This document shows, one piece after another, positions 55,644 through 64,000 of a stretch of 64,000 bases of DNA. The stretch lies in contig JALBYF010000029.1 in assembly GCA_023212725.1 (NCBI GenBank), positions 155,024 to 219,023 of the forward strand, written 5' to 3'. The first letter of the stretch is position 1; the number at the start of each line of letters is the position of its first letter. The position numbers and the translations under genes are program-made. The DNA is from Tranzscheliella williamsii. Lineage: Eukaryota > Basidiomycota > Ustilaginomycetes > Ustilaginales > Ustilaginaceae. Below the pieces are notes generated by a model. It was not told where the DNA came from. It saw only the letters and a program-made list of their open reading frames with translations, and searched no databases.

Positions 55644-56448
55644 TTAGGCGGGAGGGCGGAAGAGGGTGGTGCGGTAGTAGCGGAGCTCTGCGATGCTGGT
55701 GAGGATGTCGTCCAGGGCGCGGTGGCGGGCGGGGGAGGGGGCGGGGCGCCAGGCGGCGGCGGGCGGGTACCAGCGGCGCGCGAGCTCCTTGATCGTGCTG
55801 ACGTCGACGATGCGGTAGTGGAGATGGCGGACCAGCTCGGGCATTTCGCGCGCGAGGAAGACCTTGTCCGCATGCACTGTGCTGCCTGCCAGACACGCCG
55901 CGTTGGCCACGGGCACCCGCTCGCGCACATACGCCAGCACCGCCGCGCGCACGTCGGCGTGCGCCCAGCTCCTCTCCCCCTGGCACGCCGCCGTCAACCC
56001 AGACACCCCGTGCTGCTTCACACACCTGCCCAACCACAACACGTCAGCAAACCCGCTCCCCTCGCCACACCACCACGCAGCGCTGCTCGACTTACCAAGC
56101 ATTCATCTGGTCCAGCACCGCCTTTTCGGTGCGGATCACATAGCTCACCCCCCCGTCGACCGGGTTCAGCTCGCCGTCGGTAATGATACATGCGATCTCG
56201 AGCAGCCGATCGCCGTTCTCGATGTCCAGGCCTGTCATTCTGATCACCAGCCAGCATGGACCATAGGCAAGTCGACAGTTAGTGGATCGAATCAGCACGG
56301 ACGCAGACAGCGCGGGCGATACTCACTCGCAGTCGATCCAGACGAGCGGGCCGTCGGCAGCGCTGAGGACGCGCGTCGCGGGGGGCGGCGGGATGGGCGA
56401 GAGCAGCTCGGCAACGCCGGTCGCGCCGGGGGAGGGAACAGCGGCCAT
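55644..56448 (-). CDS. REX2: Oligoribonuclease, DEDDh 3'-5' exonuclease (REX2/REXO2)
   Basis: This enzyme degrades very short RNAs in mitochondria and cytosol. Three exons are inferred: 56327-56448, 56096-56239 and 55644-56025 (introns 87 and 70 nt; GTGAGT and GTAAGT donors), giving 215 aa. The first junction rebuilds WIDCEMTGLD, the Exo I motif with D39 and E41. Exo II has D142 in GSTVHADKVFLAREMP, and Exo III has H190 and D195 in HRALDDI; RIVDVSTIKELARRWYP is also diagnostic. All catalytic residues are present. ATG 56448 is the first in frame. The frame stays open for more than 120 codons upstream with mitochondrial-presequence character but no ATG, so the true start is uncertain. Confidence 0.85.
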
Positions 56449-57229
56449 CGCTGCTGCTGCGACACTCGCGCGCCGCGGCGGGCTGGCGGGGTGGAAAAGC
56501 GACAGGACGCGCTGCCAGAGACGATTCGACCAAGGCGCGGGCTGGTTGAAAGCTGTAGCGCTGGTGCTGAACGCGATCGCTGGTCGTCGCGCAGACAGAC
56601 GCGCAAGAGGGCCGCTACCGGTTAGGCTGTATGCGCTCGTGGCCAACACCGCCAGGCACAGCGCAGGACGGCGCGGATCGGCTCGGCACACCGCACCAGC
56701 TCGGCGGTAATGCGGAGAAAGGCCAAGACCCGTCACGGCCGGCCGGGCAGATATCGTGGCGAAGGCGACCGTGCTGATGACGGAGCAGCGGCCAGGCACA
56801 GCAGTGGCGACCCTATCTCTGGTGGTCAACAAGCCTCCTTGAGTGACGTGGAAGCGAAAGCTAGGCGGTCAATCGGCTGGATCGTCGTGAGGTTCATGGT
56901 CGGTCGATAGGAATCAGAACGAGAAAATATGGATGGATTATCTGTACAGTGAGGCAGTGGGGTGGACCCTGCATTTCTCGTCCTGATGATGCTGCCTTCC
57001 TTGCGCTCGACAACGCCCACCGCCACGATGCACAACGACATAGTACGGCTGGGGCCGTGTTTGCATTCTGGCGAATGAGTCCCTTTGACCATAGTGGAAT
57101 TGCGACCATCGTGGCCCTGACTAGAATACATGCTGGTACGAAGCGCTGAAACCGAGCGGGGGGGGAATAAGGCGCGAATTTAGGCTGGCAGGCTAAAGGG
57201 AGAGGGGGGGCGGAGCGCTGGGCGGGAGA
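56449..57229. other. Intergenic or extended REX2 5' end
   Basis: The part from about 56449 to 56873 is open in the REX2 frame and may be coding or leader. The rest, towards 57229, shows no gene and borders the 3' end of the SEC14-like gene. Confidence 0.45.
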
Positions 57230-59209
57230 CTACCTATCTGTCATGGTCTGGACCTCCAAGTCGCCGTTGCGCGCGCTCTCGAGCATCGCCCTTTGACTGG
57301 GATGGATGGGGATCGCTTCTTCAAAATGCCCGTCTTCTGTGCTAGTGGTGGTTTGCTGCAGCGCTAAGGGATAGCCTATGCTCTCGGTCGCCGCTCTTCT
57401 CGACTCGGTTCCGCCCCCTTTCCCCACTCCTTTTCTGCCGCCAGCGACATGCCCATTGCCAGCGACGTTCCGTGCTCCGATATCATCGTCCTGTCCATTC
57501 TCGCTTCCGTCTGCGGCGGGGGGTGGCAGGTGATCGGGCCAAATTTGGCCAGCGGAAGCATTCTTGGCCTTCGCTGCCGACCGTGGCCCTTTGCGCGGGA
57601 CAGCTCTGCCGATACTCTTGGTTTGCGGCCCAGAGGCATCGAGTTCGGCCAGATTGCGCTCGAGGGCAGAGAGACTGGTTCCTTCGCCGAGCACCTGTTC
57701 TTCCAAGCGGCCATCGACCGTCGGATAGGTCCAACGGATGATGCCCTCCTGGTTGATAACGCCCCACCGGTCGTACTTCAAGCCGCCGATAGCATATGGC
57801 TTGTACTTGAGCCAGGCGACGCGCACTTTGGTGGCCAGGATGTCACGATTGGCGCGGAGACTCGCAACGCCTTCGGGCTCCCAGTCATCGTCATCGGCAG
57901 GTATCCACTCCTCGTCCGCCTCGCCCTGCTTCTGAGAACGGCCGAACTTGCGCCGGACACCCCGACCGTTGGCATCCGACAAGGACGCATCGTTACAGGC
58001 CCTGGCTAACGCACGGGTGGCGTACTCAAATTCCGTACAGGCGTTTCGGTAGACGGTGGCCGCTTCTTGCAACGCTTGGGTGTCGTTCTGAAGATCATTT
58101 TCCTTTTCATCTGGAAATGGATAGGTAAACTGCCAGTCCATGTTGCCGTGCATGCTGCCTTGCGGCAGATGGTCGGCGGGGACGTGCTCCTGCAGCTCGT
58201 CGACCTTCCACGTCAAGCGAATTTTGTCCCTCACAACTGGATCGAGCAGCGGACGGAGTATAGACCAGATTGGCTTGAAGATCCAAGGTGCGCCGTGGAC
58301 ATAGATCTTGGCGAGCGTCTCGGGATAGAAAGACTCCATGGTCTTGGCCATAAAGAGGACGATGCTCCAATCCATGTTGCGAATGCCAAAGTTGTTGAGG
58401 TTGAAGATGACCACCTTGCGCTCGACGGGTGGGGGCATAAGGATTTGGAGCGACTCTTGAAGCAAGATGACGCCTCGTTTGATCTCTTCGGCGGTCTGCA
58501 GGGAGGAGTAGTGCGAGCCCACTTCGATAAAATAGACAGGCTCGCCGGCTGGAGTGGCGCCGTAGATGTAAGAAACGCCGTTGTTCATGATATTGAATCC
58601 GCCGCGAGTGCTGACCAGGCCGAGCTCGGCGTGCTTCATGATGCCAGAGACGTCGTACTGGACACGGAAGGCGCAGGTGGAGCCGATGATGGCGAGCGCG
58701 CGATCGACATCCCACTTGCGTGCGCGCAAACAGCGGAGCATGTAGGCGTCCGGATGCTCGCCCTTGACAATGGCCCAGAATTCCCTGCGTAGAGCGGCAC
58801 CGCCATGACGAAGGAGGAAGTTGTGCATGTCTTTGCTCTCTTCGAGATGGCGCAGATGCTCTTTGAGCTTGTCATCTCTGGGTAAGGACTCGAAATCGTG
58901 ACTCTGCCGACTGTCAAGGTCGTCATGAGAGGTAGAGGCGGACGAGCTGTGGGAAAAGGGCTCCGACGCCGTGGCCCTCTGCTTGCGGGAGGAGGAGGCG
59001 GGGTAACGTCCGCCTTGCTGTGAAGGGGAAAAGGAAGGAGAAGAGGGGAGAGGCGCAGCACCGGCCGAGAGCGAGTCGGAAGAAGGAGCGCTGAACTCGC
59101 AGAGACGCAAGAAGCGACGCCATAGCTTGAAGAGCGCGAGCGTCTGCGAAGGGGTGAGATTGCAACGGAAGCCTGGCGAATGCAGGTAGTCGATGGTCGT
59201 CTCGGCCAT
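57230..59209 (-). CDS. SEC14/CRAL-TRIO lipid-transfer protein, Csr1-like
   Basis: This is a 659-aa single-exon protein that should move phosphatidylinositol or a similar lipid between membranes. ATG 59209 is chosen because the frame further up has only TTG. It has a CRAL-TRIO N-terminal helix bundle at about 138-185 (REFWAIVKGEHPDAYMLRCL, RARKWDVDRALAI) and a lipid-binding CRAL-TRIO domain at about 205-355 with VIFNLNNFGIRNMDW and ESFYPETLAKIYVHGAPWIF. These resemble yeast Csr1/Sfh2 more than Sec14 itself. About 300 residues follow, including a disordered basic tail, which is longer than in Csr1 (408 aa). The N-terminal 100 residues are Ser-rich. The bound lipid cannot be told. Confidence 0.83.
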   Translation of the reverse strand: MAETTIDYLHSPGFRCNLTPSQTLALFKLWRRFLRLCEFSAPSSDSLSAGAAPLPSSPSFSPSQQGGRYPASSSRKQRATASEPFSHSSSASTSHDDLDSRQSHDFESLPRDDKLKEHLRHLEESKDMHNFLLRHGGAALRREFWAIVKGEHPDAYMLRCLRARKWDVDRALAIIGSTCAFRVQYDVSGIMKHAELGLVSTRGGFNIMNNGVSYIYGATPAGEPVYFIEVGSHYSSLQTAEEIKRGVILLQESLQILMPPPVERKVVIFNLNNFGIRNMDWSIVLFMAKTMESFYPETLAKIYVHGAPWIFKPIWSILRPLLDPVVRDKIRLTWKVDELQEHVPADHLPQGSMHGNMDWQFTYPFPDEKENDLQNDTQALQEAATVYRNACTEFEYATRALARACNDASLSDANGRGVRRKFGRSQKQGEADEEWIPADDDDWEPEGVASLRANRDILATKVRVAWLKYKPYAIGGLKYDRWGVINQEGIIRWTYPTVDGRLEEQVLGEGTSLSALERNLAELDASGPQTKSIGRAVPRKGPRSAAKAKNASAGQIWPDHLPPPAADGSENGQDDDIGARNVAGNGHVAGGRKGVGKGGGTESRRAATESIGYPLALQQTTTSTEDGHFEEAIPIHPSQRAMLESARNGDLEVQTMTDR

Positions 59210-59773
59210 GTTCGCGTCGATAGCCAAAGGAAACTGAGAGAGTTACGAGGTGACGCTGGCGGTCGGCCAATCCAGATTCTGAGGAGGCGCAAGGCAAGCC
59301 AAGCAGACCCTGAAACGCAAGGCAAGCCAAGCAGACTCTGGAACGCAAGGCAAGGCAGAGATTACACGGCTGCTGGCGAGACTCGATGACAAATGTACGA
59401 CCTTGGCCTGGCGAGGCGAGAGAGGATGGAGGAGCAGACGGAAGCCAACAAGCGTATGTGTGGGCCGACGTTGCGCATGGACGCTTTGGACCACCGCCAA
59501 GCGACAAAGCAGAAATCGTGAATGGATTCCAACAGCAAGCAGTGAATCTTATTTCTTCGACTAAGCGCCACACAAGAAGGACAGTCGACTGCTCCTGTGC
59601 CGGTGTTACTGGTGCCTGACTGGCTTGGCCTAACGCGGGGATGCCAATGGAGTGTAGTCACGCTAACTAGGAGTTAGCGCAGAGCCAAGACCACGTTGAG
59701 CGGTACAGAGTGCAGTATACCGTGCGAGTCGTCTCGCAATACCCGCCGCGGGCGCATGACCTGTCACACCGCG
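59210..59773. other. Upstream region of the Csr1-like gene
   Basis: CpG content is normal for the window. It contains a 28-bp tandem repeat (59288-59357) and a perfect inverted repeat, CGCTAACT-AGG-AGTTAGCG, at 59661-59679. No gene is seen. Confidence 0.55.
59288..59357. repeat. 28-bp tandem repeat, about 2.5 copies
   Basis: Units start at 59288, 59316 and 59344 with CGCAAGGCAAGCCAAGCAGA as their core; the third copy is partial and diverged. They lie about 80-150 bp upstream of the Csr1-like ATG. Confidence 0.8.
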
Positions 59774-60373
59774 GCACCCTCACACACTCACTTAACTGCT
59801 AGACATAACCCTAACAATCTTTAAAGGTAATTGAATCTGATCAGAATCTCCTCCTGTAGCTGTTCTTGCTGCCCCTTGCCCTGTTCACTGTGACTACCAC
59901 CAGTGATACAGCCATAAACACCAGACACATTGTAATGGTGGAGTATCCATAGAGCAATGCTGGCTCTAGGATCACTGTTTGAGTCACCTGTCCAGGGACC
60001 TGGTGGCAGTGACTATGGCACCAGCTGGACTTGGGCAGTGACTCTTGCCCAAGTGCACTGTGTGTGCTAGCACCAATGGATGGAGTCCTATGGCAAAGTG
60101 ATCAGGGATAATTCCCTATGGAGCATGGGTCTGCTGTACTAGACAAACAAAGGTATAGCTTGCACTGTGTTGCAAGAAATACCTAACAGTAAAGAACTGT
60201 GTGTATAAACTAGACTGGAAAGAGGCTCCTCCTCACCCAGCCTTGACATGCTGTTCTATATACATAGTTATTCTTCCACCCATGGTGTGAGTAGCCTGCT
60301 ACTGCCACTCATGGTGGGACTTGATACTCCCAGAACCTGGCTGAAATGGATGTGCAGGTGACAGTGTTACCCA

Positions 60374-60378
60374 CATTG
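60374..60378. repeat. Left target-site duplication CATTG
   Basis: Five bases directly before the LTR, identical to those directly after it (60710-60714). Confidence 0.8.
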
Positions 60379-60709
60379 TGTTACGCCCCAGGGTCTGATA
60401 ACCTCTGGCACTGGGTAAAGCACCGGTGTGACCGGTGCTGGGGTAGAGGCTGGGGTACTCGGTGGTGCACCGCTACGAGAGGCCGCACGATGGCGACGAG
60501 GTGGTTAGGGTCAGGTACTTCTCCTATTGGGTAGCAATAGACTAAATACATTCGACGACCTCCGGGAGGGGAGGTCGTGGGCTAGGGTGGGTATATATTT
60601 ACAAGTGTCAAGCGGTCAAGGACGGGCCCGACCGGGCACGGGCCAGGTAGGGTGTGATAGTCTTGGGGTGCAGGTGACCAACCCACAAATCGGGTCGGTG
60701 ACCGTAACA
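60379..60709. mobile_element. Solo LTR of an LTR retrotransposon, 331 bp
   Basis: It begins TGTTACG and ends CGTAACA, a perfect 7-bp inverted terminal repeat with the canonical TG...CA ends. It is flanked by the 5-bp duplication CATTG, the usual size for Ty1/copia and Ty3/gypsy integrases. There is no internal region, so it is a solo LTR left by LTR-LTR recombination. It carries 22 CpG in 331 bp, unlike its surroundings. Inside are a TATA-like GTATATATTT at 60591-60600 and two perfect 9-bp hairpins, at 60419-60439 and 60555-60578. Orientation is not certain, though the TATA-like motif favours +. The parent family cannot be named from the LTR alone. Confidence 0.82.
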
Positions 60710-60714
60710 CATTG
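60710..60714. repeat. Right target-site duplication CATTG
   Basis: Directly follows the LTR end and matches 60374-60378. Confidence 0.8.
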
Positions 60715-60821
60715 CCATGACCACAGTTGTACCAGCACAGCCAACCCTTGCCTCTCCAGTGGCAACTGGGGCACAGGCCACCCTATAACACCATACACTG
60801 TTGACAAATAGCCAAGCATGT

Positions 60822-61267
60822 CGCCACTACTGCTGACCGCTTATTCTGGAGACTGGGTACCAATACCTGCTGTACATGCAGAGCGGCTAGTCACAGTGCC
60901 ACAAAGGAAGGTGCGGAAAAGTAGAAAGGGCAGGATATTGTAGATCAATGCAGGAGGAACAGGAGGCCAGCTTGACAGGCTGAGCCAGCCTTGCTAATGA
61001 ACTATCTGCTCGCCTTTCTTTACTTAGCTGCTTGGACCTGTCAATCAGAATCAATCACAATTACCAGAATGTGGAGAACTGATTTTCTAGCCAAAAAAAG
61101 GCTCTTTGGTAGAGGGAATTACCGTTTCACTTGTGAATGCTCAAGTTCGATGCTTGGCTCTCTTCCCCACGCTGCTTTCCTGACAAACAAGCTTGCCCCC
61201 AAAACCGAGCAGAAGCGTGGTGGTGGTGACTTACCACGCAAGTCATTCTTTGGCAGCGCCCATCGAC
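60822..61267. other. Right edge of the repeat island and ECM31 promoter
   Basis: CpG-poor up to about 61010, then normal composition. It should hold the ECM31 promoter. No gene is seen. Confidence 0.5.
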
Positions 61268-62671
61268 ATGGCGTCAGCAAGTCCCCACATGCTACGGAGG
61301 CAGTGCGGCCGCATCGCCGGTCGCGCATCCTGCCCCCGTGCTTTTGCTTCTTCGTCTGCCCTAACGCTAGCAACAGCCACGCCAAGGACAACAACCGCGG
61401 CAGCAACAGCAATTGCCACCACGAACGCTACGTATTCTGCTGCTAGGTACATCCATTCGACGGCTCAGATCGCCAGCACATGGCCCGTCGGCTCTGTCCG
61501 TCCAGGAGAAATGGATGAAGAAGACGTCGATCCGTCTAGCTCGCATTCCTCTAGTAGCGGTCGTCCCAACAGCGCCCAGCCAACTTCTGGCGCAGCAAGA
61601 GCAGAGGACTCTGGTGGCTCTAGCACTACAGCGCGAGCGCCTCCTCGTCCCGGCGCCCCGAACGCTAGCTTCTCGCTTCCGACACCGCCCAGGGCCAAAA
61701 CCATCGCCGACCTACATGCGCTCAAACACGAGTCCCGGCTGCCCATCGTTTGCCTTACCGCCCACGACTTGCCCAGCGCCCTGTCCATCCGCTCGTCCGA
61801 CGTCGATCTGTGTCTCGTGGGCGACTCGCTTGCCAACGTCGCCCTCGGACATCCCTCCACCCAGCCGCTCACTCTGGATGCCATGATCCACCACTGCCAG
61901 GCTGTCATGCGAGGCCTCAATGCCCCGCTCTTCTCGGCGCCTGGACCGGTGCAAGTGCCACGGCCGCCGCTCGTGATCGCCGACATGCCGTTCGGGACGA
62001 CGATGGCCAGCACCGAGTCCGGCGTGGCGGCGGTGGTCAAGCTCATGCAGCAGACGGGCATCGATGGGGTCAAGATCGAGGGGTCGCACGAGACGGTGCC
62101 GCTGATCAAGAAGCTCACCGACCAGGGTATTCCCGTCATGGGGCATCTGGGGCTGCAGCCGCAGCGCGTTGGTGCGACGTCGGGCTACCGTGTGCAGGCG
62201 CAAACGGCAGCGCAGGCGAAGCAGGTCTACGACGCCGCGCTGGCGCTGCAGGCGGCAGGCTGCTTCTCGCTCGTGCTCGAATGCATCCCGAGCCGCGTCG
62301 GCGCGTTCATCACCCAGCGCCTCCGCATCCCCACCATCGGCATCGGCGCCGGCAGCAACACCGACGGCCAAATCCTCGTCATGAGCGACATGCTCGCCGA
62401 CCTCACCGGCGCCGCCCACGTCCTCGCCGCCCTCCACACCGCCCCGTCCTCCCCCGCCTCCGCCCCCGCCCCCAGCCCCCAAGCCCCGCCACCCCCCAAA
62501 TTCGTCCGCTCCTTCGCAGCACCCGCCTCCCTCGGCGCGCTCCGCATCGCCGCGGTCCAGGCCTATTCCCACGCCGTCCGCCACCGCTCCTTCCCCGACG
62601 ACCACGCCGAGGGCTATAAGATCAAAACCGACGAGTGGCGCCGCTTCCTCCAGCTCGCCGAGCCGGCTTAG
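61268..62671 (+). CDS. ECM31: 3-methyl-2-oxobutanoate (ketopantoate) hydroxymethyltransferase
   Basis: This enzyme makes ketopantoate from 2-ketoisovalerate and methylene-tetrahydrofolate, the first committed step to pantothenate and CoA. It has 467 aa from ATG 61268, single exon; the frame upstream has only TTG. The first 60 residues are rich in R, A, S and T without acids, as in a mitochondrial presequence, followed by a Ser-rich linker. The PanB barrel starts at about 143. Metal ligands are D186 (LVGDSLANVALGH) and D239 (IADMPFGTT); the catalytic Glu is E338 (LVLECIPSR). VMGHLGLQPQ and IPTIGIGAGSNTDGQILV are family motifs. A Pro/Ala/Ser loop (about 392-411) is inserted before the C-terminal helix. 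Convergent with the Zn2Cys6 gene. Confidence 0.92.
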   Translation: MASASPHMLRRQCGRIAGRASCPRAFASSSALTLATATPRTTTAAATAIATTNATYSAARYIHSTAQIASTWPVGSVRPGEMDEEDVDPSSSHSSSSGRPNSAQPTSGAARAEDSGGSSTTARAPPRPGAPNASFSLPTPPRAKTIADLHALKHESRLPIVCLTAHDLPSALSIRSSDVDLCLVGDSLANVALGHPSTQPLTLDAMIHHCQAVMRGLNAPLFSAPGPVQVPRPPLVIADMPFGTTMASTESGVAAVVKLMQQTGIDGVKIEGSHETVPLIKKLTDQGIPVMGHLGLQPQRVGATSGYRVQAQTAAQAKQVYDAALALQAAGCFSLVLECIPSRVGAFITQRLRIPTIGIGAGSNTDGQILVMSDMLADLTGAAHVLAALHTAPSSPASAPAPSPQAPPPPKFVRSFAAPASLGALRIAAVQAYSHAVRHRSFPDDHAEGYKIKTDEWRRFLQLAEPA

Positions 62672-62809
62672 CCTCCTCGCCGCACCCGTTTCCCCTCTAC
62701 CCTGTACTGCTACCCCCTCCTGCGTACCATACGGAACTATACTATAATGGACAGCAGCGCACCTGGTCCGTGCCGATAGTGGATACGATGGCAGATGCAA
62801 GGCGAGCGG

Positions 62810-63586
62810 TTATGTGTTTCCATGCTCGCTGGCGGGGTGGGGGAAATCGCGTACCCAGTCTTCGTCGGCAGGGGTGCCGCCGAATTCGATGGTGAAGCCG
62901 CCGAGGGCGGTGTTGGGGTGGGTGCCGGGGGGTACGAGGGATCTGTTGTGGGCGGAGCCGCCTGACCCGGAGGGGGCGAGGGGTGGGGAGTCGGGGGCGG
63001 GGTCGAGGGGAGCGGGGTGGGGACGGTCTATGTCGGTGTCGGTGTCCGGGTCGGGTTGGGTGCTGGGGGGGGTGGTGAGGGGGAGGTGGGGTTGGGTGAG
63101 GGCGGGGTAGGAGGGGGTGAGGGCGGTGTAGGTGGCGGAGCGGGGCCAGGCGGCACGCCAGGCGGCGCGCTGTGTGTCGGTGGCGCGCTCGAGGGAGGGC
63201 AGCCGGGCGGCGGCGGCGCGGTCCACATCGCCGCGCGCGAGCACAAAGCCCAGCACCGTCTCCAGCGCCACGACCCGCGCCTCGAGCTGCGGCCGCAGCC
63301 CCTGCGCCGGCCCCCGCTTCCGCTCAGGCCGCAGATACGTACACCCCCGCCCAAGACCCGCGCAGAACCCACACACCGGCCGCCCCCCATCACACCGGTC
63401 CTTCTTCTGGAAACACTGGTCGCACGCACGCGACACCCGCTTCCGCTTCCCCCCCTCCCCCCCCGACGGCGACCCCATCCTCACCAGCGCACCCACCCCA
63501 CCGCGTCGCCCCGCCGTAGATTCCCAATGCCGCAGCCAGCGTCGAGCTCGTGGTGAAGAACGGCCAAGCCTGATGGAGGTCCGCAT
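62810..63586 (-). CDS. Short Zn(II)2Cys6 transcription factor
   Basis: This is a fungal binuclear-cluster DNA-binding protein. The motif CDQCFQKKDRCDGGRPVCGF continues to a sixth Cys and gives C-x2-C-x6-C-x6-C-x2-C-x6-C, a complete Zn2Cys6 knot, preceded by the usual basic KRKRVSRA. A helical stretch (LEARVVALETVLGFVLARG) follows as a likely dimerisation region. From ATG 63586 the protein has 258 aa; from ATG 63478, just before the knot, 222 aa, and the second start is equally likely. The rest is Pro/Thr/Asp-rich, with no fungal-specific middle homology domain. The C-terminal DEDWVRDF could serve as an acidic activation motif. Target genes are unknown. It is convergent with ECM31, 138 bp away. 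Confidence 0.72.
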   Translation of the reverse strand: MRTSIRLGRSSPRARRWLRHWESTAGRRGGVGALVRMGSPSGGEGGKRKRVSRACDQCFQKKDRCDGGRPVCGFCAGLGRGCTYLRPERKRGPAQGLRPQLEARVVALETVLGFVLARGDVDRAAAARLPSLERATDTQRAAWRAAWPRSATYTALTPSYPALTQPHLPLTTPPSTQPDPDTDTDIDRPHPAPLDPAPDSPPLAPSGSGGSAHNRSLVPPGTHPNTALGGFTIEFGGTPADEDWVRDFPHPASEHGNT

Positions 63587-64000
63587 CACACCCGCATCGT
63601 GCCCCACAGTTCCCTAAAAAGTCAGCACGCTGAAGCCCCACCCCGCAGCCCACTAGAACCGGTCCGCCCTAACAGACAGCTCCCTTTGCTGTAAGATCGG
63701 GCGTCGATCTCTGCTCGTCTCGCCATCATCCGCGGCCGGCCAGCAGCGGATCCACATTCAGTAAGCCGGGATTCTACCGGTCCTCCTAACCGGGCAACAA
63801 GGGAGAGCAGAAGCGCGGCGCGAGATGTGTTCTTCACTGCCAAGGCCAAATCTGTCGAATGTACAGTACATAATACAGTACAATCGCGTCACCTAAATTT
63901 CTTGACGGAAATGAAATTGGCCCGTGAACCTCCTCCTCCTCAAATTCATAGACCATTTTTGTGATGCCATAGCTCCTTCATATGAACCCCTATCAAGCTG
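63587..64000. other. Right-end intergenic region
   Basis: Upstream of the Zn2Cys6 gene; no gene is seen. The last 80 bp or so are A/T-richer and lack CpG, which may mark the edge of another repeat beyond the window. Confidence 0.45.

Follow-up and report, generated by a model that had tools for sequence, protein, structure and literature searches.

The DNA between a SEC14-like gene and panB in the 64 kb window (the whole stretch of DNA analysed, which is the final 64 kb of contig C58) contains two blocks without a single CpG. For the most part they are the relic of one LTR, here called family A, and they probably arose by slow deamination of methylated CpG; a second, still CpG-bearing LTR (family B) was later inserted into the relic. 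Compared with CpG-rich copies of family A elsewhere in the same genome, the relic carries mostly TpG or CpA where those copies have CpG.

The CpG-free blocks and the anatomy of the locus

A base-by-base count found no CG in 59774–60378 (605 bp) or in 60710–60821 (112 bp), the CpGs that bound the two blocks being at 59772, 60384, 60703 and 60822. For the whole window the observed/expected (o/e) ratio of CpG is 1.01 (5669 CpGs), and the ratio is 1.01 and 0.89 in the 1000 bp to either side of the locus and 0.82 between the blocks (60379–60709). The longest CpG gap of the window measures 612 bp, and three of the four runners-up (119, 112 and 97 bp, the other being 118 bp) lie at the same locus. 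From its composition the 605 bp block would be expected to hold 34.2 CpGs, and the minimum among 20,000 shuffles was 17. Control windows of 300 bp, taken from eight 4 kb pieces of seven other contigs and from positions 1–59000 of the window, included none with a CpG o/e of 0.3 or less (0/883), and the longest CpG-free run in this control DNA was 123 bp. Count, shuffles and control windows thus confirm the claim of the initial annotation that two exactly CpG-free blocks lie in CpG-rich surroundings, and the abundance of TG and CA that it described is borne out by TpG o/e values of 1.89 (59774–60378) and 2.31 (60710–60821) and CpA o/e values of 1.30 and 1.77 respectively. What the annotation did not recognize is that both blocks belong chiefly to the relic of a single LTR, which a more recent solo LTR has interrupted.

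To the left of the locus, a gene for a SEC14-like CRAL/TRIO protein occupies 57230–59227 on the minus strand (PF00650, E=1.8e-33). It is followed by the left flank (59774–59930), which is CpG-free, with no CpG in 59774–59926, and lies outside the LTR. The first part of the family A relic, which starts with TGTAAT, spans 59931–60378 (plus strand of the alignment, not the LTR's own orientation) and had 13 other match rows in a search of the genome (18.18 Mb in 135 contigs). Its last five bases, CATTG (60374–60378), are the left copy of a target-site duplication whose right copy stands at 60710–60714. Between the two lies the family B element (60379–60709, 331 bp, likewise given on the plus strand of the alignment and not in its own orientation), with 22 CpGs and 44 genome match rows including itself. 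The second part of the relic (60715–60790, plus strand) has no CpG and ends with ATAACA, and the right flank (60791–61122), which is CpG-poor with five CpGs (o/e of 0.28 over 60794–61123), leads to panB/ECM31, encoding ketopantoate hydroxymethyltransferase (61193–62671, plus strand; PF02548, E=6.3e-83). These last coordinates are the extent of the open reading frame, and the true start may be further in.

The segment 60710–60793 matches C117, C92 and C23 over 82–84 bases, each time adjoining a match of the first part, and also matches C26. Since the matches of both parts adjoin in C117, C92 and C23, the two parts are one element of 524 bp (59931–60378 plus 60715–60790), with TGTAAT...ATAACA termini and no CpG. 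Family B has the termini TGTTAC...GTAACA and CATTG on both sides, and a second copy was not found in 55977–63877; we therefore regard it as a solo LTR. For family A no target-site duplication was found at the present site (CACAT and CCATA stand at the ends of 59931–60790), and for this reason we term it an LTR relic and not a solo LTR. Other copies of family A have 5 bp duplications, recognized by eye, namely CCCGC (L020), CCGCT (L019) and CTGGG (L021). No Rfam match was found in 58000–62500 up to an E value of 1 and no tRNA in the 64 kb window, and the open reading frames of at least 60 aa that overlap the CpG-free block encode 62, 94 and 67 aa. Elsewhere, on C31, an open frame of 1579 aa (L040:2628–7364) encodes RNase H and integrase domains such as LTR retrotransposons carry. 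We refrain from naming it the parent element of family A, as the family A copy near it is truncated on the side that faces the frame.

CpG-bearing copies of family A and the direction of change

The family A search returned 14 rows including the query, and pieces of 11 of the 13 others were aligned, rows of 81 bp and 37 bp being omitted. The pieces range from 173 to 535 bp, and that of L018, which as cut carries non-homologous end sequence, was trimmed before alignment comparisons. As cut, the pieces hold 36 (L020), 31 (L019), 29 (L018), 22 (L021), 11 (L022b), 6 (L017), 6 (L026), 5 (L024), 4 (L023), 2 (L025) and 0 (L022a) CpGs, compared with 0 in the window's own copy. The initial annotation had proposed a search for copies with intact CpG, and copies richer in CpG are indeed present in the same genome.

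Against L020, the most CpG-rich copy, our copy has TG at 15 of the 35 CpG sites, CA at another 15, other dinucleotides at five and CG at none; of the 214 cytosines outside these sites, 18 have changed to T. The change from C to T is confined mainly to CpG and affects both strands equally, as is characteristic of methyl-CpG deamination. When every alignment position at which at least one copy has CG is considered (43 sites), our copy has TG at 18, CA at 18 and another dinucleotide at seven, so that the CpG-to-TpG pattern anticipated by the initial annotation appears once copies are aligned. Of the 35 L020 sites, 27 carry TG in some of the 11 other pieces and CA in others, and at the remaining eight only one kind is seen. 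The presence of both products at the same sites across copies points to recurrent loss and to CG as the ancestral state.

Ten of the 14 family A rows lie within approximately 5 kb of a contig end (on C51, C31, both ends of C58, C117, C23, C133, C7 and C48), which reflects either a subtelomeric bias or mere breaks of the assembly at repeats. A TTAGGG tract lies 0.3 kb away from the copy on C117. In L026, the final ~0.2 kb of C48 (near 605.9–606.0 kb) consists of GGGGTT repeats grading into GGGTTA repeats, a variant telomere-like array 0.6 kb from a family A copy. A block larger than that of the window was seen in L023:1–4151 (C133:46000–50150), where 4.15 kb with a CpG o/e of 0.23 contain several pieces of both families.

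CpG loss in relation to divergence

In family A, CpG retention drops with divergence at non-CpG positions (rho=−0.77, P=0.006, n=11 pieces), and in eight of the 11 pieces the loss per CpG cytosine is 9–26 times that of other C>T changes, the other three yielding bounds only. The family B set comprised 33 pieces, each 120 bp or longer, from 30 loci, and over all of these there was no correlation (rho=−0.11, P=0.54). Removal of the seven pieces at a divergence of 0.19 or more, a cut chosen post hoc with the data already seen, gave rho=−0.82 (P=2.6e-7, n=26). Five of the seven dropped pieces retain 9–11 of 10–11 CpGs and have the appearance of a young subfamily of their own.

The decay is nevertheless uneven. 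L025, a family A copy at the end of contig C7, has lost 13 of 15 CpGs with 0/103 other C>T changes (1/104 in another alignment), more than its divergence suggests, whereas L021 has lost 14 of 35 at a similar divergence (Fisher P=0.004 for L025 against L021). Family B is uneven as well, the L018 piece having lost 5 of 14 CpGs at a divergence of 0.012, whereas at 0.055 one of 14 is gone from the L016 piece. The CpG sites are also not all independent, because the losses common to L017 and L024, 11 on the same strand and none on the opposite one, are shared by descent.

The family B insert itself has 22 CpGs. Over the same stretch none of the less divergent pieces of 120 bp or more surpasses it, and L016 and L045 tie with it at 14 each. 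Five members of the distant subfamily do surpass it, by 13 to 12 (L017), 15 to 12 (L049 and L062), 16 to 12 (L022) and 12 to 11 (L064).

Cytosine methyltransferase and RNAi genes

A PF00145 profile search of the genome identified two genes, on C72 and C122, and the cytosine methyltransferase genes that the initial annotation had suggested looking for are therefore present. The C122 gene combines PF00145 (375–549) with PF00176 (1392–1537) within a single open reading frame that extends over at least 2200 aa, and its product matches PDB 7r76 with E=0 over residues 307–1846. With this architecture of methyltransferase and SNF2 domains we assign it, by sequence, as a putative DNMT5. It has 64–76% identity with named proteins of Ustilaginomycotina among the best 12 of 120 matches listed, the best-scoring being 74% (U. 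trichophora); the corresponding values are 71% (Sporisorium reilianum) for panB and 49% for the C72 product. These nearest named proteins agree with the smut setting assumed in the initial annotation. The C72 product matches DNMT1 chains such as 3pt9 and is predicted to be a DNMT1-like methyltransferase. Its nearest named smut relatives have 44–46% identity, and within its 696 aa frame the only domain found was PF00145, with no match there to a replication focus domain. The two proteins are 28% identical over 140 aa, and NCBIfam added nothing. Considered with regard to the RID/Masc1 class of methyltransferase that belongs to Neurospora-type RIP, they gave matches to DNMT1 and DNMT5 in sequence comparisons, and by analogy with the CpG specificity described in the literature both are probably CpG-type methyltransferases. 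In addition, one Piwi match and two RdRP matches in the genome point to the presence of RNAi genes. The presence of a methyltransferase gene does not, of course, prove activity.

Origin of the CpG-free locus

We propose that family A was a dead LTR held in cytosine-methylated chromatin, with the C72 and C122 enzymes as the likely agents of methylation of the repeats of both families. Methylated CpGs would have been lost one by one by deamination of 5-methylcytosine, which is the chemical step we infer, a hit on the top strand giving TpG and one on the bottom strand CpA, until none remained. A second retrotransposon would then have inserted, duplicating CATTG, and collapsed to the solo LTR of family B, which would be young enough to retain most of its CpGs. 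The nesting of a CpG-bearing family B within a CpG-less family A, together with the relative CpG content of the two, suggests that most of the family A loss predates the arrival of family B. If the methylation system is active, the family B insert is expected to be methylated now.

The initial annotation had left the choice between deaminated methyl-C and a RIP-like process. That reading is supported, and slow deamination fits the data better with the exception of L025. In a RIP-like burst, of the sort proposed for Pucciniomycotina among the basidiomycetes with TpCpG as the target, duplicated DNA would be hypermutated at CpG by a dedicated process within one or a few sexual cycles, and L025, with its 13 of 15 CpGs gone and almost no other change, fits this better; a mild excess of TCG in both family A (31/69 compared with 123/441, P=0.007) and family B (75/265 compared with 124/579, P=0.036) points the same way, although these tests treat related copies as independent. 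Most pieces, however, have lost CpG in step with their other divergence, and the order of TG and CA along the copies shows no strand runs (|z|≤1.75 in the ten pieces tested). Nor is there the preference for CpA of Neurospora-type RIP, C>T having affected 7 of 74 CpA cytosines compared with 33 of 72 at CpG. With a loss that scales with divergence, targets CpG in preference to CpA and leaves no strand runs, the data favour methyl-CpG deamination over Neurospora-type RIP, and we consider a burst improbable as the source of the CpG-free locus. It is far less credible still that family A was CpG-poor from the outset, by import or by composition, and that its CpG-rich copies gained their CpGs. The GC content of the relic (0.50) is indeed below that of the window (0.59), but the occurrence of both TG and CA at 27 of 35 sites requires either a CG ancestor or double hits, and the two copies closest to L020, namely L019 (97%) and L018 (98%), are CpG-rich like it.

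Slow deamination of methylated CpG in family A, our preferred account of the relic, leaves the flanks to be considered, as depletion reaches beyond the recognized LTR: the flanks in the window, for which no other copy was found, are also CpG-poor, though 0/883 control windows were at or below 0.3. On the left the nearest 150 bp have 0 CpGs compared with 6.4 expected (TpG o/e of 2.19 in 59774–59926) and the next bin has 16 compared with 13.8; on the right the observed/expected counts are 4/9.0, 1/7.9 and 6/9.4 and then 14/13.8, low CpG extending to 61122, into the region upstream of panB. Methylation and the ensuing CpG decay may have extended beyond the dead LTR to reach single-copy DNA, over ~150 bp to the left and ~330 bp to the right as far as the panB upstream region, a suggestion we put forward tentatively and with some doubt. 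There is close to an even chance that the flanks are instead a third, very old repeat that family A entered, as the abrupt left CpG edge at 59772 might suggest. Against this, a genome search with 59770–59935 (E up to 1) found only itself, and one with 60710–61130 (E up to 0.001) found elsewhere only the first 84 bases, bearing in mind that the lack of a match is not equivalent to rarity; in addition, no family A target duplication stands here to show insertion into older sequence. We also scored flank CpG at 11 other LTR pieces and searched the genome with the flanks of three (L061, L063 and L050). In the nearest 150 bp L061 has 0/7.5 on the right and a normal 13/14.4 on the left, L063 0/8.1 and 0/6.7 on its two sides, L050 1/9.1 on the left, L055 3/8.4 on the left and L052 3/10.3 and 2/7.9, with milder depletion at the remaining pieces and normal flanks at L057, the LTR of which keeps its CpG. 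The CpG-poor flank of L061, like those in the window, finds only itself and speaks against a third repeat, and those of L063 and L050 contain repeat pieces (four and one other matches) and speak for it. If spreading does occur, LTR relics in this smut would promote CpG mutation locally, in the promoters next to them.

Comparison with known systems

U. maydis is a smut that we take to be related to the present genome. No DNA methyltransferase is listed for it in the accessible text of two sources (PMC7862722, PMC13297926), one of which, a review, nevertheless quotes 2.26% methylation by HPLC (PMC7862722); unlike it, the present genome has two methyltransferase genes. Smuts are thus reported to differ in DNA methylation genes, with none listed for U. 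maydis and CpG-poor repeats described in U. hordei and U. bromivora (PMC7862722, PMC13297926, PMC5106213). In the latter two species repeats are reported to be without CpG relative to controls, less so in Melanopsichium pennsylvanicum, and the study notes that RNAi genes are present and suggests RIP (PMC5106213). Our locus resembles these in the depletion of CpG from smut repeats; the evidence given there consists of dinucleotide frequencies in repeats compared with controls (PMC5106213), whereas here the direction of change in individual copies, the grading with divergence, the nested order and the location of two methyltransferase genes are available. CpG-poor repeats are therefore already known from other smuts, and the present case is a further one of this kind, with clear copy-level evidence: a single locus holds a stripped relic with a CpG-bearing insert, related copies rich in CpG lie elsewhere, and the genome has two methyltransferase genes. 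Another study of smut retrotransposons suggests LTR elements as a possible target of methylation and reports gene substitution levels that are weakly higher near them, for a different type of substitution (PMC9603552).

Outside the smuts named above, RIP-like TpCpG hypermutation of retrotransposons has been described in Microbotryum (PMC5381629), and CpG-only signatures have been tied to Masc2-like DNMT1 in Microbotryum, Melampsora and Puccinia (PMC4352252). The present case is similar in that a basidiomycete possessing a DNMT1-type gene shows C>T at the CpGs of its retrotransposon copies (PMC5381629, PMC4352252), but differs from the TpCpG pattern of Microbotryum in that all CpG contexts are hit and the TCG excess is weak. 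In basidiomycetes DNMT1 and DNMT5 are reported to give CG methylation (PMC7862722). The C122 product, with its methyltransferase and SNF2 domains and its match to 7r76, resembles the Cryptococcus DNMT5, described as an enzyme of maintenance methylation (PMC7862722); unlike the Cryptococcus system, the predicted system of the present genome also includes a DNMT1-like gene.
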